IMG/VR virus record: IMGVR_UViG_3300006924_000068
Span: 1-37,330 of that record
Reading direction: 5' to 3' (one strand)
Origin: a virus
DNA length: 37,330 nucleotides
The notes below the pieces were generated by a model, which had not been told where the DNA came from, ran no database searches, and saw only the letters and a program-made list of their open reading frames with translations. Shown piece by piece: positions 12,203 to 35,171 of the stretch. Within the stretch, counting starts at the first letter, position 1, and each line of letters begins with the position of its first letter. Made by a program: the position numbers and the translations under genes.

Positions 12203-15200
12203 TTAGAATGCTTTAATAATATATTTTGCTTTATGAAACTCTGGTGCTAGGGGAACTGTTCTAGTAGGAGAGAATACTACATCAGGAATAGGTTTCTTGA
12301 TACTAGTATTTAGAGTGAATGTTCCAGGGTTCAACTCCATACCAACGTCTGCTTGAGTAAATGTGAGGTTGAGAGATTCTTGCGCTGACCCCAATCCTAC
12401 TTTCCCATTACCAACACCTGACTGATTTCCATATGAATAATCTGTATCTAAATCAGTTACTGCTTGTGTTGTAATAAAATGAGAATGTGTTTCAGTAATA
12501 GAATTATTATCCCCGTCAACAATAGGAGGAACATATGAATCAACTCTTACAAATGTTTGGTCTGTATCAATAACAGCACTTACATTTCTAGCTCCCTGAC
12601 CAGCAGTACCTCCAACATCATAGAATGTACCTTGAATCCCAACGTTCGTGAGATAAGAATCAGAAACACCAGAATATGGTGAAGGCCACCAAGTATTTGC
12701 TGTAATTTGAAGTGAACGTCGTGCTGCTGAATCGTTTGGATCTGTAGTTGATGGACTAATACTCTGAATCAACGTCGTTACTAAAGACTCTAAAGTTGCA
12801 GTACCAGAAATATCATCCCATTCTCTTTCAAATTGAGCACCAGAATAATTGTCTAATCGTGCTAACCAAGCTTGAACAATTGGGTTAGGATTAGATGATA
12901 ACTGGTTATCACCAGCATCTACGAATATTGGTGCTGTCGATTGTCCTAAACCAGCAGATACATTATGCATGTTTAATATAGATGATCCGCGTGTGCCCCA
13001 TTCAATAAGAGGATCACCAGTTAAACCATCAGGAACTGCAGCAACATATAAGTGAGTATGAGCAGGAACATTAACCGCAGTATCTAATAATGGTCCAACT
13101 TGAGCAGTTACACTACCACTAGAAGCAATTGTAAATTCAACATCTTGTACAATATCAGAATCAAATACAGTTTTTACGGTTCCTAAAGAAAAGAAATTAC
13201 TTTGGATTCCTGTTGTATCTGTAGTATCATCAGATACAATGATTTCATATGGATTGTCACCTGCAACGTCTACATCGTCAACATACCACCAACCACCAAG
13301 TCCACCTGGTTCGTATACACTAGCACCACCACTAACAGGAACTTGTGCTGATGATGCTTTGTTTCCATTAACAACGCCAGTTCCTACAAGTTTTCTATTT
13401 CTATAGTCTGGTAACTGGAAACTATTACCAGATCCACCATAATCATAACCAATGACATCAAATAAGAATGGATAATCATCTTTATCTAATATTTGTCCAG
13501 AACATTCAAAATACCCAGGATATCTTGATGTTATGCTTCCGTCCAGTACACCATAAGAACCATTTGGTTGCTTGAGAATAGCAACAATAGTACCGATAGC
13601 ATGACCATCTTCTTTACTTTCGATAACCATAGGATTAGCTACTGTAGCTACTGGGATAGTAGCGTCTCCATTACCACTACCTGTAATAGTTATAACTTCG
13701 GAACCAGTATATCCAGAACCCCCATTAGCAATAGCAACACTAATAATATTACCAGATCCATCAGCATCAATGTTAACTGTTAATCCAGTTCCAGAACCAC
13801 TAGAAGAAGTAGACACTCTAGTTGTATTCCCCGTAGTATATCCAGTACCAGCAGCAGTGATAGGTCCAAGACTCTCGACTAAACCTTCAAGAAGCAATGA
13901 ACCTTTCTTACTATACCACGAACCTTTTATTTCTGGTGGAGGTGGTGCAACAGAATAGTTACTTACCTTCCAAGTAAATTGATTTGGCGTTCCTGTACCT
14001 ACAGTTACCGTTGTTTCTTTTTGTCCAGCAATGACTTGACCACCGGCATCTAAAGTAAATAAATTACCATCTGAAGTAATAAAGACACGGAACGAACTAT
14101 GAATAGTAGGATCAAATGTAACTGGACCTGCTACTGGAGTAGCAAAGTCGATAGAAATAGTAGCACCATTTGTTGCATTGATAGTGATTGGTCTATTAAT
14201 ACCAGTCACTGCAATAATACTACTTAATACCTCTGTACCGGGAACTTGATTAGTGAGATTGTTGGGAATTGGATAATCTGCATCAGTATCTGGTCCTGAA
14301 TTAGTAGTAATACTCCAAGGATTAAGAACTCTCTGACCGACTTTAATAGTAGTTGATACTACTGATGGCGTTAGAGCAGTTGAAAATGTTTCTGAAGACT
14401 TATTGTATAGTACAATCCTATCTCCATTGTTTACTTTTGTTGGGAACAATCCAACAGAACTCTCACCTCCCTCTGCATACTGAATCTTAATTCTTGGTTC
14501 ATCTCCACCAGAATCATTAGAAGAAGTACTGCTTACCAATACAACATCAACTTCTACATTTGTACCTAATTCGCTAATGCCTCCTGGAGGATCATTAGGA
14601 TCTGGTGCTGGATCAGAAGCAATTAATGCACCTTCTAATACATCAATTTGATTAACAAAACTGAAATCTTTTGGCGTAGTTGATGGGAAATTACCGTTAG
14701 TTACAGTCCAGATAGATCCACTTGACTCATCACCAATAGATAGCGGATTTGATGATACAGCACCTGCAGTATTTTCAGTTATAACATACAATTGTAAATA
14801 TTGACCGTTATTAATTGTTGGTGCAGGATTGTTAGTTACTAATTCAAAAACCGTATTATCTAAAATTTCATATCCATTACCATCAGTGAAAAATGTATTA
14901 TTATCAGATACACCCACATATAAATTATTGTTCGTTGATGAAATTATTGCAGTATCATTTAATCCTTGGACCTGCAAAATATTACTATAAACAGCAGTAG
15001 CTAATGGTTGATTAAAAAGATCATCGAAGTCTGGAAATGGTACAGGAATGTTAGGAGGAACTACCTTTGTATTAATTACCCAACGTTCTGTTCTCGTACC
15101 AATTGTTACATCAATGTAAGTTAATAATCCGGGAATAGGATTAGATAATAACTTGATTTGAATTTCATCTGTATTTTCTACAGTAAGTGATCCTGGAGTA

Positions 15201-15595
15201 GGAAGCACCCAATTACCAAAAACTGTTTCTCCATCAGATACTTTCTTAACTCTGATAGCGAAGTTACTAACATTTGCAACTAATGAACCGGTAACCGCAA
15301 CACTTGCTTCAGTAGATGTAGTTAATCCAGTTACAGTAACAATATCTTCTCCAGGTCTACTTCCATCTGCATAGACATACATGACACCAGTATCTGCGTC
15401 ATTAAGAGTCTTAAACGGATATGGATCAGGAGCAAAATCTTCTGGGATCGTAGTGATATACCAGGTTGTCTCCTGTTCACCAATTAAAATCCTTACCGAG
15501 GATGTAGTGTTCCACTGCGAAGGCGCTTTAAATTTAAAGCGAACGGTTTGTCCTTCGCTGACAAATACTGGTGATGTAGAATAAGAATATGTCAT
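12203..15595 (-). CDS. Large tail fibre-like structural protein with collar domain
   Basis: 1130 residues from ATG at 15595. The N-terminus (about 1-550) is a chain of beta-sandwich segments with regular 'V.V.G.....' strands (for example SVRILIGEQETTWYITTIPE). Around 590-650 it holds a glycine-rich repeat, GTGYTTGNTTRVST ... GGSGYTGSEVITITG. At about 685-745 is a tail-collar pattern: GYFECSGQILDKDDYPFLFD then FQLPDYRNRKLVGTG. Histidine pairs (AHTHLY, ETHSHF) in the C-terminal part resemble the metal-binding HxH motifs of T4 short tail fibres. It likely is a trimeric tail fibre. A late CTAAATAA box at 15638-15645 lies 43 nt upstream. Collar and HxH patterns are the strongest evidence. Confidence 0.85.
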   Translation of the reverse strand: MTYSYSTSPVFVSEGQTVRFKFKAPSQWNTTSSVRILIGEQETTWYITTIPEDFAPDPYPFKTLNDADTGVMYVYADGSRPGEDIVTVTGLTTSTEASVAVTGSLVANVSNFAIRVKKVSDGETVFGNWVLPTPGSLTVENTDEIQIKLLSNPIPGLLTYIDVTIGTRTERWVINTKVVPPNIPVPFPDFDDLFNQPLATAVYSNILQVQGLNDTAIISSTNNNLYVGVSDNNTFFTDGNGYEILDNTVFELVTNNPAPTINNGQYLQLYVITENTAGAVSSNPLSIGDESSGSIWTVTNGNFPSTTPKDFSFVNQIDVLEGALIASDPAPDPNDPPGGISELGTNVEVDVVLVSSTSSNDSGGDEPRIKIQYAEGGESSVGLFPTKVNNGDRIVLYNKSSETFSTALTPSVVSTTIKVGQRVLNPWSITTNSGPDTDADYPIPNNLTNQVPGTEVLSSIIAVTGINRPITINATNGATISIDFATPVAGPVTFDPTIHSSFRVFITSDGNLFTLDAGGQVIAGQKETTVTVGTGTPNQFTWKVSNYSVAPPPPEIKGSWYSKKGSLLLEGLVESLGPITAAGTGYTTGNTTRVSTSSSGSGTGLTVNIDADGSGNIISVAIANGGSGYTGSEVITITGSGNGDATIPVATVANPMVIESKEDGHAIGTIVAILKQPNGSYGVLDGSITSRYPGYFECSGQILDKDDYPFLFDVIGYDYGGSGNSFQLPDYRNRKLVGTGVVNGNKASSAQVPVSGGASVYEPGGLGGWWYVDDVDVAGDNPYEIIVSDDTTDTTGIQSNFFSLGTVKTVFDSDIVQDVEFTIASSGSVTAQVGPLLDTAVNVPAHTHLYVAAVPDGLTGDPLIEWGTRGSSILNMHNVSAGLGQSTAPIFVDAGDNQLSSNPNPIVQAWLARLDNYSGAQFEREWDDISGTATLESLVTTLIQSISPSTTDPNDSAARRSLQITANTWWPSPYSGVSDSYLTNVGIQGTFYDVGGTAGQGARNVSAVIDTDQTFVRVDSYVPPIVDGDNNSITETHSHFITTQAVTDLDTDYSYGNQSGVGNGKVGLGSAQESLNLTFTQADVGMELNPGTFTLNTSIKKPIPDVVFSPTRTVPLAPEFHKAKYIIKAF

Positions 15596-15637: not shown

Positions 15638-15645
15638 TTATTTAG
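15638..15645 (-). promoter_or_regulatory. Late promoter candidate CTAAATAA
   Basis: CTAAATAA on the minus strand, in the 60-nt gap between the upstream adhesin stop (15656) and the 1130-residue gene start (15595), differs from TATAAATA mainly at the first bases. The same CTAAATAA is seen at 36184. It would let the fibre and oxygenase genes be expressed without reading through the whole giant unit. Short AT-rich motifs are common, so confidence is moderate. Confidence 0.55.
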
Positions 15646-15655
15646 GGGTGACGGT

Positions 15656-17050
15656 TTATATGTTCTCCACGTCAACCCATACACCATCATTATCAATCTG
15701 TACCTGAATAGGAGAATCTGACTTGATTTCTACAGGAATATCAATATCAGTAACTAATAGTTCTTCTGTTGTTAACTGTATGTCAGGAGTTATTACAGGT
15801 GCCTGATCTTTAATTAACTCATCTGATTCTGGCACAATGATAGAATCGGGTAGTCTATCTATTATAGTAGGAACTATTTCAACATCTTCAGATGTTAATG
15901 AGGCAACTCCCTCCGCAAGTAATTTGTACTCAATTCTAGCAGGTCCACGATTATCCCATGCAGGAGTATGTGTAATACTACCACTTGACTCATCACCTGT
16001 TGGTAATACTACATCAGCACCTATAGTTTCTACACCATCTAACGAGTAGTAATATGGTACTATCTTTAGTGATACCGTAGCATTAATTGATGTATACCCC
16101 AACTCTAAACTATTGCCATAACTAACATTTAAAGGAACTGTTAAATCAATAACAGGTGGTTGTAATACTGTTAATGTAATCTCATCACTATCAACCCCAC
16201 CCAAACCAGATGCAGTTGCAGTGTAAGTTGTAGTTACAGTAGGAGATACTACTTGGAATGAAGATAAATTAGTAGAACCGATTCCGGGTTGGATAGTATT
16301 TGTACTTGCATCTCCAGTTGTTGACCACCTCAATACTGTAGATTGCCCTAACGTTATTGTACTATCATCTAAAGATAATGTTACAACAGGAGGAATGTAA
16401 ACTATTAAAGTTTTTGTAATTGCGCGGGTTCCTCCTAATCCATTAGCAGTTAATACATATGATGTTGTACCTGCTGGAGAAACTGCTCTAGATCCTGATG
16501 TACCTACTGCTCCAAATTGATTAATAACTCTATAATAACTATTAGATGTACTCCAAGAAATTGTCGATGTTTCTCCTCGGATAATAGTTAATGGACTAAC
16601 TGATAATACTACGGATGGCGGAGTAAAATAACATGTACCATTATCTACCGTTGCGCTAGGATTATAGTTTGCTGCTTGTGGATTAGTACAACCAGGGACA
16701 GGTGGAGGAGGACAACTAGACCCGGTTCTTAAATTTGTATGCCTTCCGTATCTGTTAACATTACCCAATTCACCACTAGATATTCCCCCGGATCTGACCA
16801 TTGCGTAGATACTGCTAAAACCACCCCTAGTAGGGTGATATACCCACGTACCCAAATATCCTTCTACACCACCAACTTCTCCATATCTACCAAACAATGA
16901 TCTGTATGCATTTGTAATTGCATTGCGAACGTAGTCGTTTCCTCCTGGCGGACTAGGATCACTGCTATATCCCTGCGGCCACCATAGAGTTCCACGGTCA
17001 CAAATATATGGATTTCCGTAACGATTGTAACTACTACTTCTATAAGGCAT
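15656..17050 (-). CDS. Modular adhesin-like virion protein 1 (DUF4214-like head)
   Basis: 464 residues. Head (1-112): tyrosine/arginine-rich, with NAYRSLFGRYGEVGGVEGYL (48-67), which resembles DUF4214-type segments (YR.LfGR....G...). Then a GCTNPQAANYNPSATVDNG cysteine motif (120-138), known from secreted bacterial surface proteins; Ig-like domain 1 (143-215); Ig-like domain 2 (219-297) with TVLRWSTTGDASTNTIQPG; Ig-like domain 3 (298-390); and a C-terminal tail ending PIQVQIDNDGVWVDVENI. The last three parts are shared with the next three genes. Probably a receptor-binding or capsid/tail decoration protein. ATG overlaps the upstream stop by 1 nt (TAATG). Confidence 0.75.
   Translation of the reverse strand: MPYRSSSYNRYGNPYICDRGTLWWPQGYSSDPSPPGGNDYVRNAITNAYRSLFGRYGEVGGVEGYLGTWVYHPTRGGFSSIYAMVRSGGISSGELGNVNRYGRHTNLRTGSSCPPPPVPGCTNPQAANYNPSATVDNGTCYFTPPSVVLSVSPLTIIRGETSTISWSTSNSYYRVINQFGAVGTSGSRAVSPAGTTSYVLTANGLGGTRAITKTLIVYIPPVVTLSLDDSTITLGQSTVLRWSTTGDASTNTIQPGIGSTNLSSFQVVSPTVTTTYTATASGLGGVDSDEITLTVLQPPVIDLTVPLNVSYGNSLELGYTSINATVSLKIVPYYYSLDGVETIGADVVLPTGDESSGSITHTPAWDNRGPARIEYKLLAEGVASLTSEDVEIVPTIIDRLPDSIIVPESDELIKDQAPVITPDIQLTTEELLVTDIDIPVEIKSDSPIQVQIDNDGVWVDVENI
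16203..16264 (-). repeat. Exact 62-bp repeat, copy 1, in Ig-like module of adhesin genes
   Basis: Bases 16203-16264 are identical to 17597-17658 (62 of 62), in the codons for SSFQVVSPTVTTTYTATASG. A second exact stretch of about 48 bp lies downstream on the + strand (16308-16355 region against about 17702-17749). Silent third-base identity over this length implies recent duplication or gene conversion between adjacent genes, not only protein-level selection. Confidence 0.85.
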
Positions 17051-18603
17051 TAAGTGATCTCCTCCACATTTAAATACACACCACTATTATCAATTTCCAC
17101 TTGAATAGGAGCATCTGCTTTGATTGCTACTGGTATATCAATATCATCAACGACGAGTTGTTCTGTAGTGACTTCAATATCTGGTGAAATGATAGGAGTT
17201 TCATTTTTAATCTTGTCTTCGGACTCCGGTACTATAATACCAGCTGGCATTTGATCAATATCAATATTGACAGTAGCAATATCAGAATCTGATAAATCAC
17301 CGGCACCAACTGCATATAAAGTGTATATGATAGATACTGGTCCTCTATTATGATAAGGAACATTATGAGTATATGTACTATTAGCAGACGCAGATGCTCC
17401 TAAACTAATAATCTCGGAGGTAATATTACCATCCAAATCTGTCATTGCAATCTGCAATTCATATGCAATCGTAGCTCTTACTTGTTCATGCTGTAATGTT
17501 ATTGATTGTCCATAAAGAACAGATATTGGTCCAGATATGCTAACTTCTGGTGGTGGTATTACAACTAATGTAATCTGATCGGTATCAGTTCCACCTAAAC
17601 CAGATGCAGTTGCAGTGTAAGTTGTAGTTACAGTAGGAGATACTACTTGGAATGAAGACAAATTACTACTACCAATTCCAGGTTGAATATCATTTGTACT
17701 TGCATCTCCAGTTGTTGACCACCTCAATACTGTAGATTGTCCTAATGTTATCTCCGCGTCATCCAACAATAATGTTACGATAGGAGGAATGTAAACTATT
17801 AGAGTTTTAGTACTGCTGTTGCTAGTGTAACCATAGTAACCTGCACTTATCGTATATGTTGTATCATCAGCTGGAGATACTACTGTAGAACCACTAGCAG
17901 CAATAGCGCCGACACTACTTAACGATCTACTAGTGGCATTACTAATACTCCAAGATAATGTAGAATTTTGTCCTCGTATAATAGCTGGTGGTGCTATCGA
18001 GAAACTGATACTGGGAGTAGGATATGAACATCCACTATTAACATTAGCACTTGGATTATAATTAGATGCTAAAGGATCCATACACCCATAGACATTATAC
18101 GTACATCCCGTACTGTATTGATTTGCATATGGATTATAGTTATTAGCACTAGAGTCTTTACAACCATATACAAATACAGGAGAATACCACGCAACACCTT
18201 TAGCTGAGTATCCCCCGCCAGCAGAACTACTAGTCGAATACCTATGATCTACAAGTGCAGAATTATAAGATTTATAAACTGGTACACGATATTGTCCAGG
18301 ACTAGTATATGCATGACCAATAATACCTTCAAAAACATAACCAGCAGGAGTGCTGCTATTAGTTTTGTAAAAGTGATTATATTGAGTTGGATTCCAAAAT
18401 CTGTATACAGGTGAAACACTCCCAACTACTCCAGCAACACCGCTAGACATAAAAAGATTCCAAACACCATATCCTGCAGGACTATATGCACTGATTGATT
18501 CGCCGCCAGAGTTTGAAGTATAGAAAGTATCTACTCTAATATAACCAGGATTGAAAAAACCGTAAAAAGAATCGAATGTATGTAGACTACCTGAAGTTCC
18601 CAT
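17050..18603 (-). CDS. Modular adhesin-like virion protein 2 (DUF5648-like head)
   Basis: 517 residues. Head (65-145): SPVYRFWNPTQYNHFYKTNS, then VPVYKSYNSALVDHRYSTSS and GVAWYSPVF, the pattern of DUF5648 repeats (VYRf.n...g.HFYt......), a lectin-like surface domain. Two cysteine motifs follow, GCKDSSANNYNPYANQYSTG (147-166) and GCMDPLASNYNPSANVNSG (173-191). Three Ig-like domains come next, with STVLRWSTTGDASTNDIQPG again, and a tail ending QVEIDNSGVYLNVEEIT. Ig domain 2 is nearly identical to that of the protein at 15656, including at the DNA level. ATG at 18603, 3 nt after the upstream stop. Confidence 0.75.
   Translation of the reverse strand: MGTSGSLHTFDSFYGFFNPGYIRVDTFYTSNSGGESISAYSPAGYGVWNLFMSSGVAGVVGSVSPVYRFWNPTQYNHFYKTNSSTPAGYVFEGIIGHAYTSPGQYRVPVYKSYNSALVDHRYSTSSSAGGGYSAKGVAWYSPVFVYGCKDSSANNYNPYANQYSTGCTYNVYGCMDPLASNYNPSANVNSGCSYPTPSISFSIAPPAIIRGQNSTLSWSISNATSRSLSSVGAIAASGSTVVSPADDTTYTISAGYYGYTSNSSTKTLIVYIPPIVTLLLDDAEITLGQSTVLRWSTTGDASTNDIQPGIGSSNLSSFQVVSPTVTTTYTATASGLGGTDTDQITLVVIPPPEVSISGPISVLYGQSITLQHEQVRATIAYELQIAMTDLDGNITSEIISLGASASANSTYTHNVPYHNRGPVSIIYTLYAVGAGDLSDSDIATVNIDIDQMPAGIIVPESEDKIKNETPIISPDIEVTTEQLVVDDIDIPVAIKADAPIQVEIDNSGVYLNVEEIT
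17597..17658 (-). repeat. Exact 62-bp repeat, copy 2
   Basis: Second copy of the stretch at 16203-16264, in the same codons of the homologous Ig-like module. The unit spacing is 1394 nt, i.e. one gene length. It can be a target for homologous recombination that would swap heads. Confidence 0.85.
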
Positions 18604-18605
18604 AT

Positions 18606-20291
18606 TTAAATCTCCCTAATATCTACGTATACACCACTATCATCAATTTCTACCTGAATAGGAGAATCAGCTTTTATTTCTACTGGTATATCTATACCAT
18701 CAACAAGAATTTTATCTGTCGTAAGTGTTATATCAGGACTTATTACAGGAGTTTGATCTATAAATTTCTCATCAGATTCAGGAACAATCATGGCATCAGG
18801 GGTTCTGTCAATAACAACATTTACCGTCTTAATATCTTCATCTGTTAATGATCCAACCCCTATACCATATAATTTGTATTCTATACGAACAGGTCCAATA
18901 GTATTGTATGCTGGACTATGAGTTGTATCACGGTCAACTATCGTCGCAATTGGAAGCTGCTCTACAAGAATGTAATTACTAAATGAACCATCAGCATAGT
19001 AATACTTAACTAAAAGTTGTAGGGAAACACCAGAATTAACAGAATATGATGATAAATTAATATCATCACCATAATTAACAGAAAATGGTGCTGTTAATGT
19101 TACTACAGGTGGTGTAACCACAGTAACAGTAACTTGATCAGAACCTTGACCTGCTAATGGATGAGAAGCAGTTAATGTATATGTTGTAGTTTGTGTTGGA
19201 GTTACCTGAATAGGTGTTGAATTAATATTGACACTACCAATGCCGGGAGTTAATTGTGCAGTGGAAGCATCTCCAGTAATACTGTATATTAAATTAATAG
19301 ACTCCCCTTGTATGATTACATTGTCAGATCTATCTGTCGAAAGATTTACAGTAGGAGGAATAAGTACGTCTACACTCCGTGATTGAGATCGAGTACCACC
19401 AGGACCAGATGCGGTTAGTGTATATGTTCTATCATTAGGAGGACTAATTGATACAGTTTGTGATACCGGACGATTACCAGGAAAGTCTGTTAGTGAGACA
19501 GATGTTGCATTACCAGCAATATTATAAGATAAAGTTGCATTAGATCCGCGAACAAATTGATTGGGTGTTATTGTAAAAAATTGAATGTCTGGTGGAGCGT
19601 AGCTAAATGATGCTGTGAAAAATCCATTACCATAATTTGAATACCCACTATTATAAGTCCAGTTATAATATTGGGTATTACTATACCATCCAGAGTTGCC
19701 CCCAATGCCAGCATATCCGTTATACGTAGTTGCACCACCTAACCCACCAGCACCGCCAGTAGACATTCCTCCTCCTCCACCACCACGGTGACCAGCAGGA
19801 GCATTTCCACCATTCCTCGCACTTATTGAACCGGTTGTAGATCCACCACCAATACCACGACCAGCAGAATAGTATCCACTATAACCGGTGTTATTATCCA
19901 TTCTACCAGCACCGCCACCACCACCAACAATGACAGTATATCTGTTTAATCCACTATCATAAACACCAGAAGCGCCACCACCACCGCCACCAGAACGGTG
20001 ACCATTACCACCACTTGCTAATGGAGAATAACCACCAGATCCACCAGGGTTAGCTGGTCCATATCCTTTAGAACCTTGTCCACCAATATAAAAAGTTAAA
20101 ACATAGTCATAACTACGAGTAAGTAATCTAAAATTACCAGCTCTACCAAATCCACCATTAGAAAAATTCCACCCACCTGATGATTGCGAACCTCCACCGG
20201 ACGCAGCACCTACACTGAATATTACATTTGTAGAAAATTTTGGTACAGTGACTCGATGCGTACCTGGTTGTCGTGATGAAAAATTAGGCAT
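18606..20291 (-). CDS. Modular adhesin-like virion protein 3 (glycine-rich head)
   Basis: 561 residues. Head (about 25-210) is glycine-rich: SVGAASGGGSQSSGGW, GGNGHRSGGGGGGASGVYDS, VIVGGGGGAGRMDNN and similar, with aromatic residues spaced between. T4-like phage receptor-binding adhesins (gp38-type) contain stacked polyglycine-II helices with this look. Then three Ig-like domains (PPDIQFFTITPNQFVRGSNA; PPTVNLSTDRSDNVIIQGES; PPVVTLTAPFSVNYGDDI) and a tail ending SPIQVEIDDSGVYVDIREI. The glycine head is likely the variable receptor contact; the C-terminus is likely the attachment or fold module. Confidence 0.75.
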   Translation of the reverse strand: MPNFSSRQPGTHRVTVPKFSTNVIFSVGAASGGGSQSSGGWNFSNGGFGRAGNFRLLTRSYDYVLTFYIGGQGSKGYGPANPGGSGGYSPLASGGNGHRSGGGGGGASGVYDSGLNRYTVIVGGGGGAGRMDNNTGYSGYYSAGRGIGGGSTTGSISARNGGNAPAGHRGGGGGGMSTGGAGGLGGATTYNGYAGIGGNSGWYSNTQYYNWTYNSGYSNYGNGFFTASFSYAPPDIQFFTITPNQFVRGSNATLSYNIAGNATSVSLTDFPGNRPVSQTVSISPPNDRTYTLTASGPGGTRSQSRSVDVLIPPTVNLSTDRSDNVIIQGESINLIYSITGDASTAQLTPGIGSVNINSTPIQVTPTQTTTYTLTASHPLAGQGSDQVTVTVVTPPVVTLTAPFSVNYGDDINLSSYSVNSGVSLQLLVKYYYADGSFSNYILVEQLPIATIVDRDTTHSPAYNTIGPVRIEYKLYGIGVGSLTDEDIKTVNVVIDRTPDAMIVPESDEKFIDQTPVISPDITLTTDKILVDGIDIPVEIKADSPIQVEIDDSGVYVDIREI

Positions 20292-21850
20292 TATATTTCC
20301 CTAATGTTCTGCCAAACGTTATCATTATCAATTTCCACTTGAATAGGAGAATCTGCTTTGATCTCCACTGGTATATCTATATCAGTAACGATAAGTTGAT
20401 CTGTAGTAACTTCTACATCAGGAGTTATTACGGGTTCCTCATCTTTAAATGCGTCATCAGTTTCAGGTACTTGAATAGCATCAGGAGTTGTATCAATTAT
20501 AATAGGAATTTCAATGCTATCACTTTCTTCTAATGTTCCAAACCCATCTACAAGAAATGTAAGTCTTACTTTAAATGGTCCATAATCAGTATATGCAACA
20601 GGTATTGTATGTCCAAATACAGTTACTTCATCACCAATAGTGTCAGGTATTGCTACTGAAGGTTTAAACTCATTAGTTCCATCAGTATATAAGTATTCAG
20701 CAATGTAACTAATACCTCCATCAGAATTAGTAGCACTAACAGTTACTTGAATATCTTCATTGTATAATATGTTAATGGGTCCACTCACACTAATAGTCGG
20801 TGGTTCTAGTACATAAACTAATACCTCCGCAGAACCTGTTCCTCCTAAACCAGAAGCAGTAATAGTATATAATGTATCTACAGTAGGAGATATTGTTGCG
20901 AAACTATTCAGATTAGAACCCCCAATACCAGGAGTAATATTCACATTATCAACGTCACCAGTCACAGTCCAACGCAATATAGTGCTGTTCCCTTGCACTA
21001 TCGTAGCATCAGTAGCATCTACACTAAAAGTTATTTGTGGCGGTATGTATACAGTAACTGTAACAGTAGAAGATCTAGTGTATGCAGGATTTGTTGTAGT
21101 TAATCTGAATTCACTGGTTTCTGTAGGAGCAACAGTCAAATTACCAGATCTATTTACCTGTCCGAGTGATTCAACAACAGCACCATTACGCATTCTTTCT
21201 AATACTTCTGATGTAGACTCACCACCACCAGTTGTCCATGTTAAACACGATCGAGAATTATTCCCATCAGTTCCATTTAATCTATACGCAGTGGGATTAG
21301 CACTGATTGATGGTGTTGGAGGATCGTATGTACAAATAGTGGCATATACCGATCCAGAATATCCATATCTACAACTACCACTGCCACCTTGCTGACCGCC
21401 TTGACCTACAATAGCATAAACATTTTGTCCAGGTTGCGCCCCAGAACTACCTCTATATTTTACACAGCACGATGCACCTCCACCACCTCCGCCATAACTT
21501 GAGCCACCACCTCTCCACTGACCCGATCCGCCCTGTCCAGTGCTTCCATATCCTGATGCAGCTCTATTCCATGGACCACCACCGTATCTACCGCTAGATC
21601 CATATCTCCAGTTACCATATCCACCGCTGCCTCCACTATAAAAACTACCAGGACCACCACCATAAGAGATAGTTCCACCAGCACAACTATATCCTCCGGA
21701 CTGTGGTGTTTTACCAAAGTAAGGATTTCCGGGTATATTAGGACGTGCTCCGCCGCCACCACCACCTACAGTAATCCAACTAACATATTTTACACAAGTT
21801 GATATATTAATATTACTACTATATGATCGATATACGTTGAAGGATGCCAT
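20291..21850 (-). CDS. Modular adhesin-like virion protein 4 (glycine-rich head)
   Basis: 519 residues. Head (about 25-165) is glycine-rich, beginning VKYVSWITVGGGGGGARP and continuing with GGGPGSFYSGGSGGYGNWRY and QWRGGGSSYGGGGGGASCC. It differs in sequence from the third protein but shares composition. It has several cysteines (CAG, CCVKY, GSCRYG), which the others lack at these places. Three Ig-like domains follow (STILRWTVTGDVDNVNITPG), with tail ending SPIQVEIDNDNVWQNIREI. First of four coupled genes: its stop overlaps the next ATG by 1 nt (TAATG). Confidence 0.75.
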   Translation of the reverse strand: MASFNVYRSYSSNINISTCVKYVSWITVGGGGGGARPNIPGNPYFGKTPQSGGYSCAGGTISYGGGPGSFYSGGSGGYGNWRYGSSGRYGGGPWNRAASGYGSTGQGGSGQWRGGGSSYGGGGGGASCCVKYRGSSGAQPGQNVYAIVGQGGQQGGSGSCRYGYSGSVYATICTYDPPTPSISANPTAYRLNGTDGNNSRSCLTWTTGGGESTSEVLERMRNGAVVESLGQVNRSGNLTVAPTETSEFRLTTTNPAYTRSSTVTVTVYIPPQITFSVDATDATIVQGNSTILRWTVTGDVDNVNITPGIGGSNLNSFATISPTVDTLYTITASGLGGTGSAEVLVYVLEPPTISVSGPINILYNEDIQVTVSATNSDGGISYIAEYLYTDGTNEFKPSVAIPDTIGDEVTVFGHTIPVAYTDYGPFKVRLTFLVDGFGTLEESDSIEIPIIIDTTPDAIQVPETDDAFKDEEPVITPDVEVTTDQLIVTDIDIPVEIKADSPIQVEIDNDNVWQNIREI

Positions 21851-21854: not shown

Positions 21855-22751
21855 TTAAAATTTAATTACGTAATGAACTAAAATAAAAGGAGTAACTACT
21901 TGATTTAATACATTTAAATTTTCTATATCTACATCGACGGTTGATGTCATCTCATCTAATGGAACATCGACGTTTGGATAACTGTATGTAAAATTACTGG
22001 TATAAACATATGGTCTTGTAATAGTATGATCGTGTCCAGGATCACCAGAAATGATATTGCTAGTTGTTTCTTCTAAACTATTTCCCCCAGAAGCATTTGC
22101 GGTATTAGCGCGTGGTCCTTTACCATCACCTCCAATCGCATGTTGTGCAGAATGATTCAAAACAGTAAAACCAGTATCACCAGCAACATTATGATAATGT
22201 CCTTGAAACTCTTCTATTGATAGAGAATATACACTAGTGTCTTTCGGTACAATAAATTTTGGAGTACCATTAAAATTAGCAATGTCAGATCCAATTACCA
22301 TATTTCCGATGTAACTAACCGATGCTGACTCACCAATATTTGAGATAGGATCAACTTCAACACCAACTTTACTAATACCAGGGTCATCCTCTACTGTTGT
22401 AGAAAAATATTCCCCAGATCCTCTACTACCAATAATTACTTTTGATCCTAAATCAGGAAGTTGGAACTGTCCCAAATCATTAGTTTCGGTATCTGCATTT
22501 CTTAAATTGACATTTTCTTTCTTAAATCTTGATTCATCTCCCACACCAAGAATCTGCGACAACAGTAAAAAATCTTTTGCATTTTTAATTGTACCGTCAC
22601 ATTTTAAGAATCCTGCTGGCATACTCTCTTTAAATACTGCAGTGGTTGGATCATTATTAAATCCTAATCCAGATACAGTATGCATCTGAATGGTTCCAGG
22701 AATACCACCCCAATGGGATTTATTATGAGCGTAGTTATTTCTTTTTACCAT
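21855..22751 (-). CDS. Tail-collar fibre protein
   Basis: 298 residues from ATG at 22751; the frame continues further upstream but has no better start. A collar-domain pattern lies at about 18-110: PGTIQMHTVSG, MPAGFLKCDGTIKNAKDFLL, then FQLPDLGSKVIIGSRGSGEY. The C-terminal half has histidine pairs in QGHYHN and GHDHTITR, the HxH metal-binding type of T4 short-fibre tips. Probably a fibre or fibre-tip protein that forms a trimer. It lies 1 nt after the stop of the other collar gene at 22753. Confidence 0.8.
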   Translation of the reverse strand: MVKRNNYAHNKSHWGGIPGTIQMHTVSGLGFNNDPTTAVFKESMPAGFLKCDGTIKNAKDFLLLSQILGVGDESRFKKENVNLRNADTETNDLGQFQLPDLGSKVIIGSRGSGEYFSTTVEDDPGISKVGVEVDPISNIGESASVSYIGNMVIGSDIANFNGTPKFIVPKDTSVYSLSIEEFQGHYHNVAGDTGFTVLNHSAQHAIGGDGKGPRANTANASGGNSLEETTSNIISGDPGHDHTITRPYVYTSNFTYSYPNVDVPLDEMTSTVDVDIENLNVLNQVVTPFILVHYVIKF

Positions 22752-22752
22752 T

Positions 22753-24180
22753 TTAGTATGCTCTGATAATGTATATCGACGTGACTCTTGGTTGCTGAAT
22801 ATTAAAATCAATTTGCAACGCTTTTTGATTTACTGTGTTATCTAGTGTGACATTTGGCATAGTAACCGACGCAGTAAGATTACTTTGTGGTCTCATCCTA
22901 CTACCATCAAAAACAACTTCAAACTCATCGTGAGTGTGTGAAAATATTTTATCATTAGCAGTTTCACTAGTAAAGTTAAGTCCAGGATTACTTACTAATG
23001 TATCACCAACAACAGTATCGCTTAAAGTATAATGGTTTTTAAATCCTTCAGGAATACTAACAGTATTTCCACCAACACCGAAAGGTACACTATCTGCAAT
23101 ATATTTTCCAGTACTTTTAGCAGGAGTTGTTAAAAATCTCCTACTTAATGGCGATCTCGTGGCATATGCAGGTTTCATGTTAATCGGAGGTTGCTCTGAT
23201 GCTGCTTTAGAAACAATTTTGCCGGGTGAACCCTGACCAAATCCGGTTGGAATATTGGCATCATTTGGCCATTCTAAAGTATAAGTATCTGTTATGCCAG
23301 CAGTAGGACTACCACCAGGAGATGATAACCTACCTGCTACAATACCACCATAAAGATCTGATGTCTCTCCACCACGGGTAGCGGAAATATTACTACCTGA
23401 TCCGTCAGATGAGTTTGCGGCTGGGGAGTCATTTGCCCATCCAAAGTCGGTTGATGTCCAACCAAAATAAACATCTACACCACCCTGCTCATCAGCAGAA
23501 AGATCAGTGAAATCGCCATCATTATCGATACCATGAGCAAAGAGAGTATAATAGATCGGATCATAAGGAACTACCCCCTTTCCTGGTTTACCAGGATTAT
23601 TATTATTAATTGTTTCTAATGACCCTGGATGATTATGTCTTTTAATATGTTTTCTACCTAATCTTCTGGGTCCAAGATAGAGAGTTTTAATCCCTTCACC
23701 TGGAATTAATGTATTTCCTCGAATTTTACCTACATATCCAGTTCTATCGTCATTGTTAATACTAAAAACTAAATCAACAAATACATCTGTAAAAATAGTA
23801 GTTACCCCAGAATCTTCATTTGTTCCAATAATTGGATCCATCACTGTTAATGCTTTTGGATCTAAATCCGCAGCACGACCAGTACCACCAGCAGCAGTAG
23901 TTGCAAAATACGTTGATTCAATATCCATCAATGTTTTACCATTGAGGTTAGGCATTTTAATGCTACCCAAATAACCAGGAAAATTACCATCAAAATCACT
24001 ACTACCGGCATTATAAGTATCTCCAATTGCCTGTGCTAACAAAGGAAAATCAGAAGCTGATAAAGTTTGTCCGTCACAAATAATCCACCCCGAAGGGATT
24101 GATGTCAATCCCCCAGTCCAAGGCAATATGGTGCCAATAACGGCACCTTTTGCAGTTTTAGTTTCTTGATAGAAAGGCAT
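22753..24180 (-). CDS. Tail-collar fibre protein, larger paralogue
   Basis: 475 residues. N-terminal collar pattern at 14-92: GTILPWTGGLTSIPSGWIIC, DGQTLSASDFPLLAQAIGDT, then SIKMPNLNGKTLMDIES. The middle is variable (GGSPTAGITDTYTLEWPNDA). The C-terminus has HTHDEFEVVFDGSRMRP and the strands RVTSIYIIRAY. The collar domain connects fibres to the baseplate in known phages. Shared collar features with the genes at 12203 and 21855 suggest three collar-type fibres. ATG at 24180, 4 nt after the giant gene. Confidence 0.8.
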   Translation of the reverse strand: MPFYQETKTAKGAVIGTILPWTGGLTSIPSGWIICDGQTLSASDFPLLAQAIGDTYNAGSSDFDGNFPGYLGSIKMPNLNGKTLMDIESTYFATTAAGGTGRAADLDPKALTVMDPIIGTNEDSGVTTIFTDVFVDLVFSINNDDRTGYVGKIRGNTLIPGEGIKTLYLGPRRLGRKHIKRHNHPGSLETINNNNPGKPGKGVVPYDPIYYTLFAHGIDNDGDFTDLSADEQGGVDVYFGWTSTDFGWANDSPAANSSDGSGSNISATRGGETSDLYGGIVAGRLSSPGGSPTAGITDTYTLEWPNDANIPTGFGQGSPGKIVSKAASEQPPINMKPAYATRSPLSRRFLTTPAKSTGKYIADSVPFGVGGNTVSIPEGFKNHYTLSDTVVGDTLVSNPGLNFTSETANDKIFSHTHDEFEVVFDGSRMRPQSNLTASVTMPNVTLDNTVNQKALQIDFNIQQPRVTSIYIIRAY

Positions 24181-24184: not shown

Positions 24185-27100
24185 TTATACTTCGATTAAA
24201 TACCAACCAGATTTGGAGGTTGAAACAGCAGAGTTGCCATCTGCATCAGATGTTCCTGCATATACAAGAGCAAATCCTGCATAAGGTGTTTGAACAATAA
24301 GTTCACCGCCGTTATAACCAGCAAGACTTGCCGAGTTACCAGAAAGCATTGCTGATCCTGTGTTATCAGAAGAATTCTGAACCGTAACATTACTTGGTGC
24401 TCTAACAACAAGTGATAAGTTATAGGTCAGGATACCACCAATATCTATAATCCTAATCATGTCGCCCAATTGTGCATTTTCAGGAAGTTTAACAACCGTG
24501 TTCTGACTGGTATTCAAGAAGTAATTTACGTTTGCTTCTGCAAGAACTTCAAAGGAATCGGAATAATCCCATCTGCGACCACCTGTAGGTGAGAAGTAGT
24601 TAGAAATTCCGCCCAATGTAACTGCTCTATCAGCACGAATACCGAAGGATTGACTTCCTCCAGAATTAACAGTTAGGTCGCCACCCTCAATCGTAACATC
24701 ACCAGCAATTGATAGTGATCCACCAAATGTACTTGTTCCTGTACCAAGGGCAGAGAACGAACCATATACAGCAAAGTCTCCAGAAGAATTATCAAAGGTA
24801 AGTCTTGGAGTAGTTCCATCAACTCCGAAGAAGTTCATATCACCACCGTTGATCGTTAGATCACCAGTTGCGGTATCAATTTGGAATGTAGTTCTGAATG
24901 GAACTGCAACCGTTGTTCCGTCAGATAGGAAAGAAGGACCACCGTTAGTGATAGTAAAGAACTCTTGACCTTCGATTGTAGAACCGTTGATCGTAAGTGT
25001 GTTCTCGGTAGTAAGTGTTCCTGCAATAGCAGTATTACCTGTAGGACCATCAACAACTAACTTGTTAAATCCTTGACCGAACTTAAGATCTCCACTACCG
25101 AATGTATTACCAGTTGTAGATTCAATCTTGAAGTTAACAGACTCTGGTGTACCACCATCAGTAACAATGAATGATTGAATGTCTGTGGATACTAGTTCAA
25201 CAACTTTAACAATCTCAGTATTAGTAAGAAGCAAGTAGTCACTAGTTGTTAAGACTCCACCGAATTCAGAAATACCAATACGAACATTAGCAGTATCAGC
25301 AAGAAGACCAGATGCACTCTGAAGTTTTATTTCTGCACCTGCAGATTGATCAGACCAGAGATATTCAGCAGTAGCAAGTGTATTAGAAAGTTTAATTTCA
25401 ACAGTGCTGCTGTTACCAACAATGCTTGATTGTACCGGCCAATCACCATTCAGTTCGCTTACGTTTGTTCCGGAGATTCTGATAAACTCACCATAATCAA
25501 TATTCAATGTAGAGTTTGTTTCACTCTGCCAATGAATAGTAACAATGTCAGTACCGTCAGTAACAATCTTCTGGATTTGTCCGTCAGTGATAAGTACACT
25601 TGATACAGGATCTAATTCACCGTCATAATCGGTGTCAAATCCAGTGATGAATGAAGCATTGATTTGCTTATCTAACTTATTAATTACACATCCATCAGGG
25701 TGATCTGTTCTTGCGATCGTACCAGAATTAGCACGAGAAACCGAGATACGGAAACCATTAGGATCATTCGGGTTGGTGATGTTAGTTAGTCCAACAACCT
25801 CAACAATTTCTGTTTGACTTTGATCCTTCGGTACAGTAACACCATTACCATCAATACTATCAGGAGATAAGGCATCTGCTCTATCAATGAGAAGCAAATC
25901 ACCAATCTGGAAATCTTGTGTCGATGGTCGAGTGATTGGTAAGTTATAAAGATTACCAGAAGCATTAACTCCAGCAACCTGGAATGTCAGATCATCACTA
26001 CTGGTGGGATTACCTAAAGTAGCAGCAGAAATAGTAAGAAGATCATTATTGCTATAACCAGTACCAGGAGATACTAATTCAACAACGGCAGTTCCATCAC
26101 TTAATACTTGAACTGTAAACAATCCACCTTCACCTGTTCCGCCTGATGCTTCGATGAAAGTATACGTGGTGTTAGCAACCCAATCAGCACTCTGTACTGG
26201 AGAAATATTGTCAATACTTGCAATCTGACCACCACCAAGTAAGAAATTAGGACCACCCCAGAGACCAACACCAGCAGTATCAATTACTTTTCCTGTTTGT
26301 GAGAACTTAAGGAATGTAACATTTGGATTTTCAAGTGATCCAACAATGTGATCAGCACCAGCAGTTGCAAATCTTGCTCTCTCAATTTCAACAATACCAG
26401 CATTTAATCCACCATCAAGTTTAAGGTTGGAATAAACAGTAGCACTTGCGAGAACATCAAGAGAGTTTCTAACAGTAGTCTTACCACCCAACGATGCAAT
26501 AGTAACTTGAGAAGCGTTAACTCCAAGTTTTACTGCAGTTGTTGACTGACCATCACCAATATTAAGTGTAGCTGCCGGAGTAAAGATACGAGCAGAAGAT
26601 GTACCAGCAAAAGAAGCAACTTCAAGTGTACCAGCAAGTTTAGTCTGATATGTACCAATATATGTGGTAGAAGCAAGGTTAGGTGCCGCACCACCAATTC
26701 GGATTTGTGCGTTACTAGTAACATCATCTTCTGCAGAAGCAATATCAACTACAGCATTTCTTGTTCTTTCATGAATTTTAAGAGTAGTTGTTCCGGCATT
26801 AGAACCAATTCTAACAGTTTGCGTCGAAGAACCACTAACTGTATCACCGATACTGATCGATTGAGAATTTGGAGTAGAGTTACCAAGAATAATTGATTCT
26901 GCTTGATTTAAACCAACAAAGAAGTCAACGTTATCTTTGAGGAATTGGAATGTTTCTGCAGTAGAGTTAATGTCTCCACCGTCTACACTCAAGTCATCCT
27001 GAATCAGCATGTTTCCAGTAAATCTGGAATCACCGATAACAACGAAGTTCTTATCGAGTTCAGTAGATGGATCCAGACCAATGCTGGTATTAACACCAAC

Positions 27101-30100
27101 GCGACCACCTAATCTATAGGTAGCAGATTGATCAGCAACCGCGAGATCTGTTGTAGAAACACGTAATGTTGCGAAGTTATCTTCACTAGAACTATCACCA
27201 CCAACCAAGAATGCGTTAGTGAGTGGGAAGTATGTCTTACCAGTAGAAGGTTCTGCCAGATAGTTGTTAGTGGAAACTGCTCCAAGAGCATCATATTCTA
27301 CTAAATTCTTACCACTGATGAATGCATTACCAACAACATCCAAGTTAGCACGAGGATCAGTCTCGGAAGATACAGATGCAGTCAATGCTGCTTCCTGATT
27401 ACTCCTACCAATTGTATTAATACCTAACTTATAGTCTCCAGGGACATTAGTGTAGGTACGTAATGCTTCTGCTCCAAGTACACCAGTTTCTTTCCAAGTA
27501 GATTCGGAAATTTCAATCTTTGCACCAGGACCTTCAGTAGACCAGTTGTATACATTTGCAGCGATCTCGTTAAAGAGTCTGATCTGACATGTATTTTCTG
27601 AATCTACCGCTGTAATTATATTCCAAGATCCATCAAAGAAGTTATTACTGAAACTACTAATGCGAAGTTGCTCACCAACTTTAACTTTTAAGTCTTGGTT
27701 ACTAATACCAGTAGACCACTGAATGGTGATCGTAGTGCTATTATCAGATGTGATAGTAAAGATTTGAGCATCTGCAATCTCGGTATAGAAGTTAGAGTAA
27801 ATCGAACCTAAAGATCCGGAATAACCAACTTCCTCACCTTTCCAAACAATATCACCAGCATTAGGAACGATAGAAGAACCATAAGTGATATTCTGCAAGG
27901 TATACCAAGCAGAACCACCAGCAGCAATTAATCCACTATTATTTGGTGTTACATTAGAAGGACTTCCTCCAGTGTAATGTGTTCTGATGCTGTAAACCTG
28001 ACCTTGAGCACCTACGTTACCGCGAGGATTGAGTTTAAATACAGCTGATCTAACTTCGTTCTTGGTTAGAACAATATCTCCGTCTTTGTTGTCTCTGAAA
28101 GAAGATCTGTCAAGAGTTGGATCATCACCACTACCAACCAGGGATAAGATGCGAAGTGAATCTCCCTCGAATGGGTCAACATTAATTGTTACCGGGTTGT
28201 TCAGGAAACTATCGCCTTCGATAGTTACCTTGTCGTTAAATGTAACTGCAGTGTCGAATGTAGTAACCAGTGCTCCAATAGTGTCGGAGTCATCACCACT
28301 GTCGGCAAGAACTGCCTGCTCAAGGAACGTCTCTTCGCCTGTAATAGCGTTGATCTTACGATTACCAATATAGAGGTCACCGTTAGAGTTTAGACCCGTG
28401 TAGAAGACAATACCACCGTCTTCACGTTTTGCTTGTGCATAGAAGTCTTGCTTATCAGATAGAACAACTTCCTGACGAAGTGGGAAACCAGTTGAGTAGT
28501 TACCAGGACCGAATCCAAGATACTCAAATGTGTGGTTACCAGATCTTGCAATAGATGGTCTACGAAGTTCAACATAGAATCTACCATCAAGAGGATATTC
28601 AGAGTCACCAGAGATAGAAATCTGTCTGTTTTCAGATCCAATTGAAGCATTACCATCTTGTGCTCTCAATCTGTTATCAACAATATCACCATCTACATTA
28701 GAAGTAGTATTTGTAAATTGATAAGAAAGAAGTGGATCAGTAGCAAGAAGGTCAGTAACTGCTTCTTTAGTCTCACTATACTTGTAATCATTAAGTGTTA
28801 CAAGACCATGAACGTAGTTATCTGCTGCAGCTACTGATGCTGGAGGATCAACAATGGTTACATCTCTAGTTCCGTTATCTTGAACCTGGAACCACAGAGG
28901 ATCATTCTTGTAATCCAGAGGATACAGATTAGAAATTGGTTGAGAGAACTTATAATTTCTAAAGTTATCGCCAACACCTGCACCTGTAGGAAGAGGAGAC
29001 ATATTACCACGTACAGCAGTAAGGTAGTAAATACCATCTTGCTGTGCAGGAATAACTTCTTGAATCTGTTCGACATCATAGATGTAGAAAGTATCTTCAA
29101 TTTCAGGAATATCAGCAACAGTTGATACGGTGTAAGTATCTCCACCAGGAGTTGTTACTCTATCACCAGGAACGATCGTATAAACATTTGCTCCCTCGAT
29201 TCTATACAAGAAGTTATCTCTACTAGATCGTGATGCGCCAAGATAAGGAGAAAGTGAATTCCAACTATCAGGTTCGCCCAACAAAGTCCAGAAAGTTCCA
29301 TTCGATTGTGTGAATGTTGTGGCAGTATTTACATTGTATGCCGTGCCTGTGTCATAATCAAGTTTGCCAGTGATATTTTTAAGGACAACAAATGCTGTTG
29401 CTTCAATAGTTGCTGGGAAATATGCATGAACATATCCAGAACCGGTGCAGTATCCACTCCAAGTAACATAGTTGTCGTCATCATTATTAAATAGATCTTC
29501 TTCAATTCCTACACCTTGAGGACCAGAAATTTCAATAACAGTAAAGATTTCGTTCTTTAAACTCTGATTAAGAATAGTGTGATCGAATACTGTTGCTTCT
29601 AATCTAGTTTCACCGAGGTCATTAGTGATCGTTCTTGCACTTTGAATAGTAGTTACAATCTTTGATTGGAACTCAATCTGTAAAGGATTTTCATATGGAT
29701 CATACAGATTCTCGGTAGCATCGATATCAACACCAGCAGTATTCAAATCTGCTAAAGAAGCACCAATTTGTTCTGTGGGTTGTGTCGGATTGAAGAATTG
29801 TGCTACATCAGGGGCACCATTACTGTATGGTTCCAAGATAAACTTCTGTGGACGCAATCTTCTTCTATCATCAGTTCTTGTCTTGATGACATAACCATTA
29901 AGAGGTTCACGAACATTTTCAAGATACTGCGGGACAACATAACGCAAACGATAGATTCTATCGAGTTCAGTTCTATTGTCTTCATATCTCTGATACCAAG
30001 TATCAGGAGTGAAGAGATTACCAGTGCCATCTACAAAGTCAGATGCATGGAATCTAGTTAAGATACTATTAGCATTTATTCCACCTGATGACTCGTCTAT

Positions 30101-33100
30101 AACATTGAGATACCATCTATCGTAGTTAGACGCATCAAATTTCAGTGGAGATGTTTTCTTATCTCCATATACAAGGAAGTCACTGCCACTACCTGTTGTA
30201 AATACAATCGCGTTTACACCTGCTTGGGCATCTGCTTGAGATGTGTGAACCGAGAACTTCGTCTTGGTTACATAACGAGGATAGTAGTAAACATCTGTCT
30301 CTACTTGCCCACCACCAGCAATATCAGGAAGTTGTGAATTAGCATCGGAAGATGTTCTAAAGAAAATCTTCTGTGCTGGTACGTTAGGAAGAGGAATATC
30401 GAAGATGTGTGGAATATCAGTCTCAAGATAAATTCCACTTACATTAGATTTATAGCGATGTAAGTCATACGACTCGTCAAGAACATACTGCTGAAGAATA
30501 ATTTCTACACCAGGATCAATTGCTTCAGTTTCTGGTGAGTAGATGTAGATACCAGCTGCTGCATTTTCTTTCGTAGCAGCAAGTAACAGAGAAGTTTCTG
30601 CAGTTGTATCAAACTCACTTGTACTATTGAATGAGTATGGATATGTATCTCTACCAGGAGCGATAACATAGTATACCGTATTTGTGTTAAATCCTCTTGG
30701 AAGTCTAACCAAACGCTTGTCAGTGTCAACTGTTAATGCTCTTGGAATCAGTCTTACTGGAGTACCAGTTTGTAATCCATGAGGATCAGATTGCAACCCA
30801 CCGGTATTAATTGTAAATAATGTCGCACGTCCTGTTAAAGAACGAGACTCGATAGGTGCTTCGACTCTTACTACTTGACTAGCATTGCCGGACAATACCA
30901 AGTTGACATTATCGAAGTATCCTGCAATTGCAGTAGCAATGTTATCACATTCCGGATAATTTGTATCCTGGGTGATATCAGTATTAGCATACTGGAATGA
31001 TTGAGCATAGTAAGAAAGATTCTCAAAATACAACCAAGCAGTATTTGTTGTTCCAACTGCCAAATATGGTTGGTTAGTTGTCTGATCTTTTAATGTAATT
31101 GTAGTTGAGTTTACAACTTCATCAATCACAGCAGCACTAATATCGATATTAGTAAGGTCAGCATTAACCGTAGGATCAACTAAACCATCTGTAAAATCAC
31201 TACTATTAAATTCTCTGACTAGCATACCAGGAACAAGACCTGATGTATCTCCAACTACAACAGTTGCACTACCATTTGTTACAGTTGTATTCTTAATCAA
31301 GAGGTTGAAATTACGCATTGCGCCGATCATCAGGCGCTTCAGGTAATCATATGCCTCAAGAGTTTCTGTCAACTCATTGTCAACATAATCTAACTGACCT
31401 GCAACCAAATAACCTTCAGCGGCAAGAAGTGTATTGATGTTACCACCCAGACGCAAGTCCTTAACAGTTGCATCAACAAAGTATCCGATGTCTCTTTCAC
31501 ACTTACCAATCGTGATGTTAGGATTAGTTAGTAGATCAGGATACTTCGCAGTAATATAACCGTATGTTTCTTGCTGCAACCATACTCTATTTCTTTCAAT
31601 TTGATTTGCTGCATCTTGTGCGTAATTGAAATCATCATTACCATCACCATCAACATCAAGAGTGATGTTAAGTGCGGCAGGAGTTAACGTAGAAAGTGAT
31701 GTAGTATAGGTAGAGAATCCACTTGGAGATAGTTCTGATGCGTAAGTTTGCTTACCACCTACACCACCAGAGGACAATTTAACATATAGTTTGTCTCCAG
31801 ATGCTGCACCAATACGATATCCACCAATAGTAGCTGCGGGTCTATTTGCAGGATCTTGATTAGTATCACCAGCAAGATATAGTCTGGTATGATTATTTTG
31901 GTCATTTGAAGCTTCAATATCAATTGTATAATATTGCTGCTTAATAATTGCTGTAGCAGAAGTATTAACAACCTTGGGAGGAACAATAGAATCAATGTAT
32001 CCACCTTTGTCTTGGTTGAAGGAGAATCCTTTAAAACCAATTGCGTGAAGTGAAGTGTTACCGAAGTTGGAGTTCGAGTTGGTGATAGACATGTCACCAC
32101 CACTTTCCATCAGGAAGTGATCGTGGAAACCAACAGCAAAGACCGAGACGCACTGAATGAATGAGTCATCCGTTGCACGAATGTGGAAGTTTCTCCAATC
32201 ATCCTTCCAGTATGCATCACCTTTGGTGTGATAAGGAATGGTAGCAAATGCATCAGATAGTGATGCTTGATTCCAGGTGTTAGTAAATCTATCGTAACGA
32301 ATGAACGCTCTATCATCTTTCTGGAGCGAAACACCCGTGTACTGTGCAACAACCATCGACTTGAATCCAGTTGCCTTGGATCCATCTGCCCACATACCAC
32401 ACTGTCCCCAGGTGGATCTGATGGAACAGTTGAAGACGTAAGGAGAAGCAGACTCAACAGAATCGATTTCTGCTTGGATAACACCGTTGGTGCCAAGACC
32501 ATTGGCAGATGTGTATGTTGTACCAGAAACTAATCCCAGACCAGCAGCATTAATGGTAATAATATAAGAGAATAATTTAGCGTTAGATTGATCAACAGTG
32601 TCAACCTTAAATGTACCATTTACATTATCTGATAGTCCACTATTAATAACAGCAACATACTGACCTCTAAAATATCCATGATCAATCTTTGTAGTTACTG
32701 TAATACGAGAAGTAGACGTACCAGGGATATCGTCAATCTTAAGACTCTCGATTGTTCTGGTATCAGACAGAGGACCAACAATACGGTTTTCCTGTACCAG
32801 TGCCTCTAAATCACCATCATCAATTGTAGGTTGGAACTGTGCGAATGCTCTACCAACCTTCTCGTAATAACGATCGAGTTCATTATTATCCGCATAAGTC
32901 ATGATAGTGATCTTATGGTGCGAATACTCGGGAATCGCTAATGAAGAGAAATCGGTTGGATTGTCGTATACTTTACCAACACGATCTGCCTGATCATATA
33001 GAGGGGAGTTCTCGGAAAGGTCACCATCCTTGATAGTGAACTGCCACAAGTAACAACCACCAGTCAAGTTAAAGATAGAAGTTCTTCCGTAATCACCATC

Positions 33101-35163: not shown

Positions 35164-35171
35164 TATTTATA
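35164..35171 (-). promoter_or_regulatory. T4-type late promoter TATAAATA
   Basis: Exact TATAAATA on the minus strand, 39 nt upstream of the giant gene ATG (35125) and directly downstream of a terminator (35176-35202). T4 late transcription uses this box with gp55-type sigma and a sliding clamp. A purine-rich AGAAGGAA lies 11-18 nt before the ATG. It should start the whole 27-kb structural unit. Confidence 0.8.

Follow-up and report, generated by a model that had tools for sequence, protein, structure and literature searches.

The Hoc protein of bacteriophage T4 carries tandem Ig-like domains and attaches to the virion via its C-terminus. Ig-like domains and C-terminal attachment of Hoc are also described in work on tentaclins (PMC10743442), proteins in which an N-terminal C-type lectin head is followed by one to four Ig-like domains and a conserved C-terminal Ig anchor, and in which the single C-lectin head is varied by a diversity-generating retroelement. 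Receptor-binding domains are likewise exchanged in modular tail fibres and tailspikes, where the variable end is usually C-terminal (PMC10684548). According to a 2010 review (PMC2984593), counterparts of T4 fibre genes, g34, g37 and g12 among them, cannot be recognised in cyanomyoviruses, and their place may be taken by structural proteins that are unassigned. Here we analyse a tandem gene array in a 37,330-base fragment (‘the window’, meaning the whole stretch of DNA analysed) of a member of the Kyanoviridae, a T4-like cyanophage and virus of ocean cyanobacteria. No paper describing this array or its recombination was found in the open-access literature.

Four tandem genes within a late structural run

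The minus strand of the window carries a late structural run (Table 1) that opens with a 3646-aa tail-fibre protein, continues through a 475-aa short tail fibre, a 318-aa collar protein, the four array genes and an 1130-aa short tail fibre, and proceeds to 2OG-Fe(II) oxygenases and then a tail assembly chaperone. An initial annotation of this DNA had described four back-to-back open reading frames of 464, 517, 561 and 519 residues; all were recovered at those lengths and positions, and they are transcribed in the order 519, 561, 517, 464. The near-TAATG junctions that it also described are present at 519/561 and 517/464, but not at 561/517, where a gap of 2 nt intervenes. Given these overlaps or 2-nt spacing, and a late promoter before the first gene, the four array genes are likely to be co-transcribed in one late tail-fibre operon. 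The promoter motif matches one reported for S-PM2 (PMC2984593), and the next NATAAATA site on the minus strand occurs only at 11583. Scans for promoters and terminators within the array gave no clear excess over shuffles. A Shine-Dalgarno-like stretch is encoded in the tail end of 69/111 internal genes, compared with 17/47 last genes, which is suggestive of a fixed tail-end feature, albeit not a universal one.

Table 1. Positions of the array genes, their landmarks and flanking genes in the window.
Feature	Position	Strand	Description
Window record	IMGVR_UViG_3300006924_000068		linear, 37,330 bases
Array gene 1	20291..21850	-	519 aa; glycine-rich head (residues 1-187), Ig-like D1-D3, C-terminal tail
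Array gene 2	18606..20291	-	561 aa; second glycine-rich head (residues 1-230), Ig-like D1-D3, C-terminal tail
Array gene 3	17050..18603	-	517 aa; DUF5648 head and di-cysteine NYNP repeats, Ig-like D1-D3, C-terminal tail
Array gene 4	15656..17050	-	464 aa; head of its own family, Ig-like D1-D3, C-terminal tail
Recombination joint in gene 4, coinciding with D2	16116..16403	-	overlap of two alignments to the five-gene locus L023
D2 (TTGDAST Ig-like domain) of gene 3	17554..17787	-	
Linker and conserved C-terminal segment of gene 3 (IPVAIKADAPIQVEIDN)	17053..17256	-	equivalent ends in genes 1, 2 and 4
Linker and conserved C-terminal segment of gene 4 (IPVEIKSDSPIQVQIDN)	15659..15859	-	terminal-gene tail type T10
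3646-aa tail-fibre protein (phrog_4527)	24185..35125	-	first gene of operon
Short tail fibre, 475 aa, Pfam Collar domain (phrog_4591)	22753..24180	-	flanking gene
Tail collar protein, 318 aa (phrog_4714)	21855..22811	-	flanking gene upstream of array
Short tail fibre, 1130 aa, Collar domain (phrog_4924)	12203..15595	-	flanking gene downstream of array
T4-type late promoter TATAAATA	35164..35171	-	39 nt upstream of the 3646-aa gene

Three other features of the run were observed. A strong hairpin with a T-run, terminator-like in form, lies directly upstream of the late promoter (35150–35200). Between gene 4 and the 1130-aa fibre gene, an intergenic stretch of 60 nt (15596–15655) holds CTAAATAAG, possibly a weaker late promoter for that fibre gene, which is kept in four related loci (L023, L024, L028 and L019). 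After the fibre genes, positions 9446–12199 contain a pair of genes of 2OG-Fe(II) oxygenase type, plus a third that is small, related to them and named endonuclease V, a neighbourhood conserved in annotated relatives; that these oxygenases might hydroxylate fibre proteins is offered as an idea.

A common C-terminal module behind dissimilar heads

The four array genes are paralogues. Their products align pairwise over 362–529 aa at 34–48% identity (blastp E 1e-77 to 1e-127), and 4/4 match phrog_2155 over most of their length (E 1e-134 to 1e-162). In the common module, two Ig-like domains are followed by a third domain, then by a low-confidence linker and finally by a conserved C-terminus of ~45 aa; an IPVEIK..SPIQV.ID tail is found in 4/4 proteins, and DIDIPVEIKADxPIQVEID is the strongly conserved motif of the C-terminal segment. 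This shared architecture had been proposed in the initial annotation and is upheld, the third domain being predicted by AlphaFold2 as a beta-sandwich too. Models of genes 3 and 2 (mean pLDDT 77 and 85, respectively) contain three consecutive beta-sandwiches with local pLDDT mostly >90, C-terminal of which come a disordered linker and then a low-confidence segment bearing the conserved motif; for the predicted glycine-rich head of gene 2, pLDDT is about 71–95. Similarity is high in D2, which is 83% identical in amino acids between genes 3 and 4, with DNA identity of up to 98% (60-nt windows). Apart from one hit to a glycine-rich domain, considered below, sequence and fold searches of the PDB with the array proteins returned generic Ig-like matches only (titin, complement, DSCAM and 9ncf, an ‘immunoglobulin-like domain protein’), and an NCBIfam search gave nothing useful. 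Residues 451–483 of the 1130-aa short tail fibre show weak similarity (E 0.002) to the conserved C-terminal segment of the array proteins.

That the heads differ completely, as had been claimed, is slightly too strong, because a common di-cysteine ‘NYNP’ segment links the heads of genes 3 and 4. The DUF5648 assignment of the gene 3 head is secure (Pfam E 7e-12), and the two glycine-rich heads, of genes 1 and 2, do belong to distinct families; the supposed DUF4214-like head of gene 4 matches no Pfam family at E≤0.1, DUF4214 included. Elsewhere in the family, two heads have PA14 domains that score above the Pfam cut-off. A match of the glycine-rich head to an ALK-type glycine-rich domain (7lir) was rejected as compositionally suspect. 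The di-cysteine repeat at the end of head 3 (GC.D..A.NYNP.A....GC.Y, within 17050–18603) occurs also in otherwise unrelated viral contigs (L032–L041).

Joints and copy number among near relatives

Near relatives of the window possess five (L023, L030), four (the window itself, L019/L021) or three (L028) array genes. The alignment of L028 with L023 falls into two blocks, of 95% and 90% identity, with a 237-nt overlap in L028 at D2; between them ~3.07 kb, equal to two gene units, is missing from L028. For the window and L023 there are likewise two blocks, with a 288-nt overlap at D2 of gene 4, and ~1.70 kb, or one gene unit, is missing. Loss from five genes, not gain, would be the simpler reading of direction. 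Sliding identity follows the same pattern: up to nt ~1050, L028 gene 3 for the most part exceeds 90% identity to L023 gene 3, whereas beyond that point it is 78–97% identical to L023 gene 5, and window gene 4 resembles L023 gene 4 in its head and D1 and L023 gene 5 past D2, most of D2 itself being 77–98% like that of window gene 3. As judged from these alignments, in window gene 4 head 4 is fused to the terminal-gene tail of five-gene arrays. In the tail tree window gene 4 groups with L024 gene 3, L023 gene 5 and L028 gene 3 at 100/100, the heads being of three kinds, and the same fusion recurs in L019/L021 and, at 79–84% identity, in L024. L091 and L088 differ by a swap of the last gene's head alone between flanks 84–87% identical, and L072 is missing two genes relative to L059, with a joint within the last ~150 nt of the tail. 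On these comparisons, several of whose junctions are drawn from metagenomic assemblies, the joints are D2 and the last ~200 nt, and what changes is a single gene or a single head.

Not every position exchanges rapidly, since the heads of genes 1–3 are stable among near relatives, where they are conserved in order and about 61–89% identical to those of the window. Recurrence of the same heads in the same order, which the initial annotation had named as evidence against its reading, is thus found in part: heads 1–3 and their order are common to the window, L022, L023, L025, L028 and S-CAM3, the changes among the closest relatives affecting gene 4, gene 5 and copy number, whereas other lineages exchange heads outright. 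Tails are homogenised within arrays. Over the last 75 residues, mean identity is 62% within arrays and 49% between them, genes with the same head in different arrays averaging 55%, and the best within-array paralogue beats the best same-head gene of another clade in 60/94 cases, counts that are descriptive given the non-independence of the sequences. The pattern fits gene conversion or recombination among neighbours.

Head exchange among isolate genomes

The module is present in 49 phage records, all cyanophage or marine. Arrays occupy the same place in two copies (S-CAM4, ACG-2014j, ACG-2014e), three (S-PM2, Syn1, S-RIM44, S-RIM32, S-H9-2, S-CAM1, Sf-FP1, Sf-CH11, ACG-2014i) or six (S-CAM3), and the order tail collar protein, array, 1000-aa short tail fibre is kept in S-CAM3, S-CAM1, S-PM2, S-RIM44, Syn1, S-CAM4, ACG-2014e/i/j and others. 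From a scan of viral contigs that returned 244 relatives, 74 loci were kept. Across arrays, 17 head families and 54 tail types (counts that depend on the chosen thresholds) are combined differently.

Isolates of S-RIM44 provide a direct comparison. Np_42_0711 and Sn_08_0709, the latter 99.9% identical to Syn1 in the array region, are 97–99% identical in DNA on each side of the array; gene 1 of Np_42_0711 is 85% identical to that of Sn_08_0709/Syn1, and gene 2 has been replaced outright (486 vs 884 aa). The two versions of gene 2 are identical over the last 120 nt and 96% identical to 180 nt, similarity fading beyond. The head of the 486-aa version shares 80.6% protein identity with the head of gene 1 in S-CAM4, a member of another genus, compared with 40.8% for the remainder of the two proteins and 41–52% for flanking genes, which indicates that the head moved between genera without its tail. 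Similarly, ACG-2014j isolates US103 and US23 have flanking DNA 92–94% identical and gene 2 products of 582 and 1861 aa, of which only the last ~206 nt of the genes align at the 3′ end, with moderate similarity. Exchange of heads on a retained C-terminal module, the cassette arrangement suggested in the initial annotation, is strongly supported by such comparisons of isolate genomes and by the metagenomic relatives.

Gene 2 of ACG-2014j US23 (L011:4934–10519) and of ACG-2014e (L008:4384–9753) encodes 1789–1861 aa with a PA14 domain and holds two complete C-terminal modules in one frame, apparently representing two array genes fused.

Discussion

Paralogy, operon context, head exchange, recurrent joints, change in copy number and homogenisation of tails within arrays are the observations from which our reading starts. 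We think it probable that the array encodes elongated virion adhesins, reversed in polarity relative to ordinary fibres, whose heads are re-paired by recombination. In such a protein, docking to the tail or baseplate is probably the task of the short conserved C-terminus, the three Ig-like domains would form a stalk, and the variable N-terminal head probably touches the host surface. Because every array gene ends in the same module, any head could be fused to any tail: homologous recombination within D2 or the final ~200 nt, whether the genes belong to a single phage or to co-infecting phages, would join them in frame, removing or adding whole genes and allowing a foreign head to be imported without disturbing the anchor. 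Head swapping probably varies what the particle can stick to.

Host contact by the exchanged end is suggested by which end is conserved, by head domains with a link to carbohydrates (PA14 and DUF5648), by the glycine-rich heads, by synteny and by the annotation of deposited records. The last of these also points to the presence of array proteins in virions: S-PM2 p222 and Syn1_036 carry the deposited name ‘virion structural protein’ and both array neighbours the name ‘hypothetical’, as one would expect if individual members had been detected in virions, and Sullivan et al. 2010 (PMC3037559) describe cyanophage structural annotation as founded on the virion proteomics of S-SM1, S-PM2 and Syn9. 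Against adhesins stand the low confidence of the C-terminal anchor segment in the AlphaFold2 models and the PHROGs category of the family, ‘head and packaging’.

That category would suit Hoc-like capsid decorations, with Ig-like domains pointing outward, a C-terminal capsid-binding part, and heads binding surfaces or particles non-specifically. The polarity is the same (C-terminal anchor, Ig-like repeats), and Hoc-type outer capsid proteins are among the foldseek viral matches; those matches, however, extend generically to tandem Ig proteins, titin and complement among them, no Hoc PHROG was matched at E≤0.1 by the window proteins or at 0.01 by any of 54 relatives, and every annotated array that was examined has its genes placed between those for tail fibre and collar. 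We regard capsid decoration as unlikely. Less likely again is a non-adhesive structural role, as a variable part of the baseplate or fibre shaft whose head diversity reflects drift or internal protein partners: neighbouring proteins are structural and the function of the heads is putative, but PA14 domains, the wholesale swapping of unrelated heads between 98%-identical isolates and the horizontal transfer of a head by itself are better explained by external contact than by internal partners. Tandem duplicates that are stable and passed on vertically, with no exchange, would account for the conserved order of heads 1–3 described above, yet are very improbable in view of exchange and fusions at the same locus, and are contradicted by the isolate genomes. 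Chimeric contigs assembled across repeats in the common module can be dismissed almost entirely, for although the window, L023, L028, L088 and L091 are metagenomic assemblies with joints in repeats, the same pattern occurs in complete isolate genomes and the fusion of head 4 to its tail recurs in L019/L021 and L024.

Beyond the adhesin reading itself, we raise more tentatively, as a possibility somewhat short of probable, that the array is a self-recombining repertoire: several different adhesin heads per particle would be carried at once on identical sockets, and continual unequal crossing-over at the common Ig-like domain and tail would add, delete and re-pair heads. Were this so, host contact would evolve by expansion and contraction of the array, not by point mutation or a retroelement. 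The array is a concrete candidate for the adhesins of many Kyanoviridae. In nature there are isolate pairs, nearly identical, whose difference at this locus is mostly a single head, and with these a connection of head identity to host range could be tested directly.

In comparison with known systems, tentaclins are alike in having a variable N-terminal binding head, an Ig-like stalk (three predicted sandwiches in the array proteins) and a conserved C-terminus proposed as virion anchor. They differ in that the array exchanges many unrelated head families by recombination among 2–6 tandem genes, and in that its conserved end is short and follows the last Ig-like domain; no C-type lectin domain was detected in array heads by Pfam or NCBIfam, these being DUF5648, glycine-rich or unassigned. 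Among the genes annotated here, none is named as a reverse transcriptase or template repeat of a diversity-generating retroelement. Hoc shares the polarity, the tandem Ig-like domains and, putatively, the C-terminal virion attachment, whereas the array has no Hoc PHROG or Pfam match, lies among tail-fibre genes and is multi-gene with swapped heads. The window's four proteins are members of the ‘virion structural protein’ families phrog_2155, phrog_9770 and phrog_29022 (T4-GC 737, 738, 739, 1047 and 1048 in cyanophage records), which are without assigned mechanism, the behaviour of the array being absent from the papers found. With modular fibres the array has in common domain mosaicism and, in close relatives, a fixed attachment module with an exchanged binding domain: one part is swapped and the other retained in the near-identical phages of the S-RIM44 isolates, the ACG-2014j isolates and L088/L091, and the exchanged part presumably binds a receptor. 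In modular fibres, however, the N-terminus is usually fixed and the C-terminus variable, and the array is a set of tandem paralogues recombining with itself. The closest parallels are accordingly tentaclins and Hoc, of the same polarity, and ordinary modular tail fibres, of the opposite polarity, to which the array would add a reversed solution to modular adhesin exchange, with variable N-terminus and common C-terminus.
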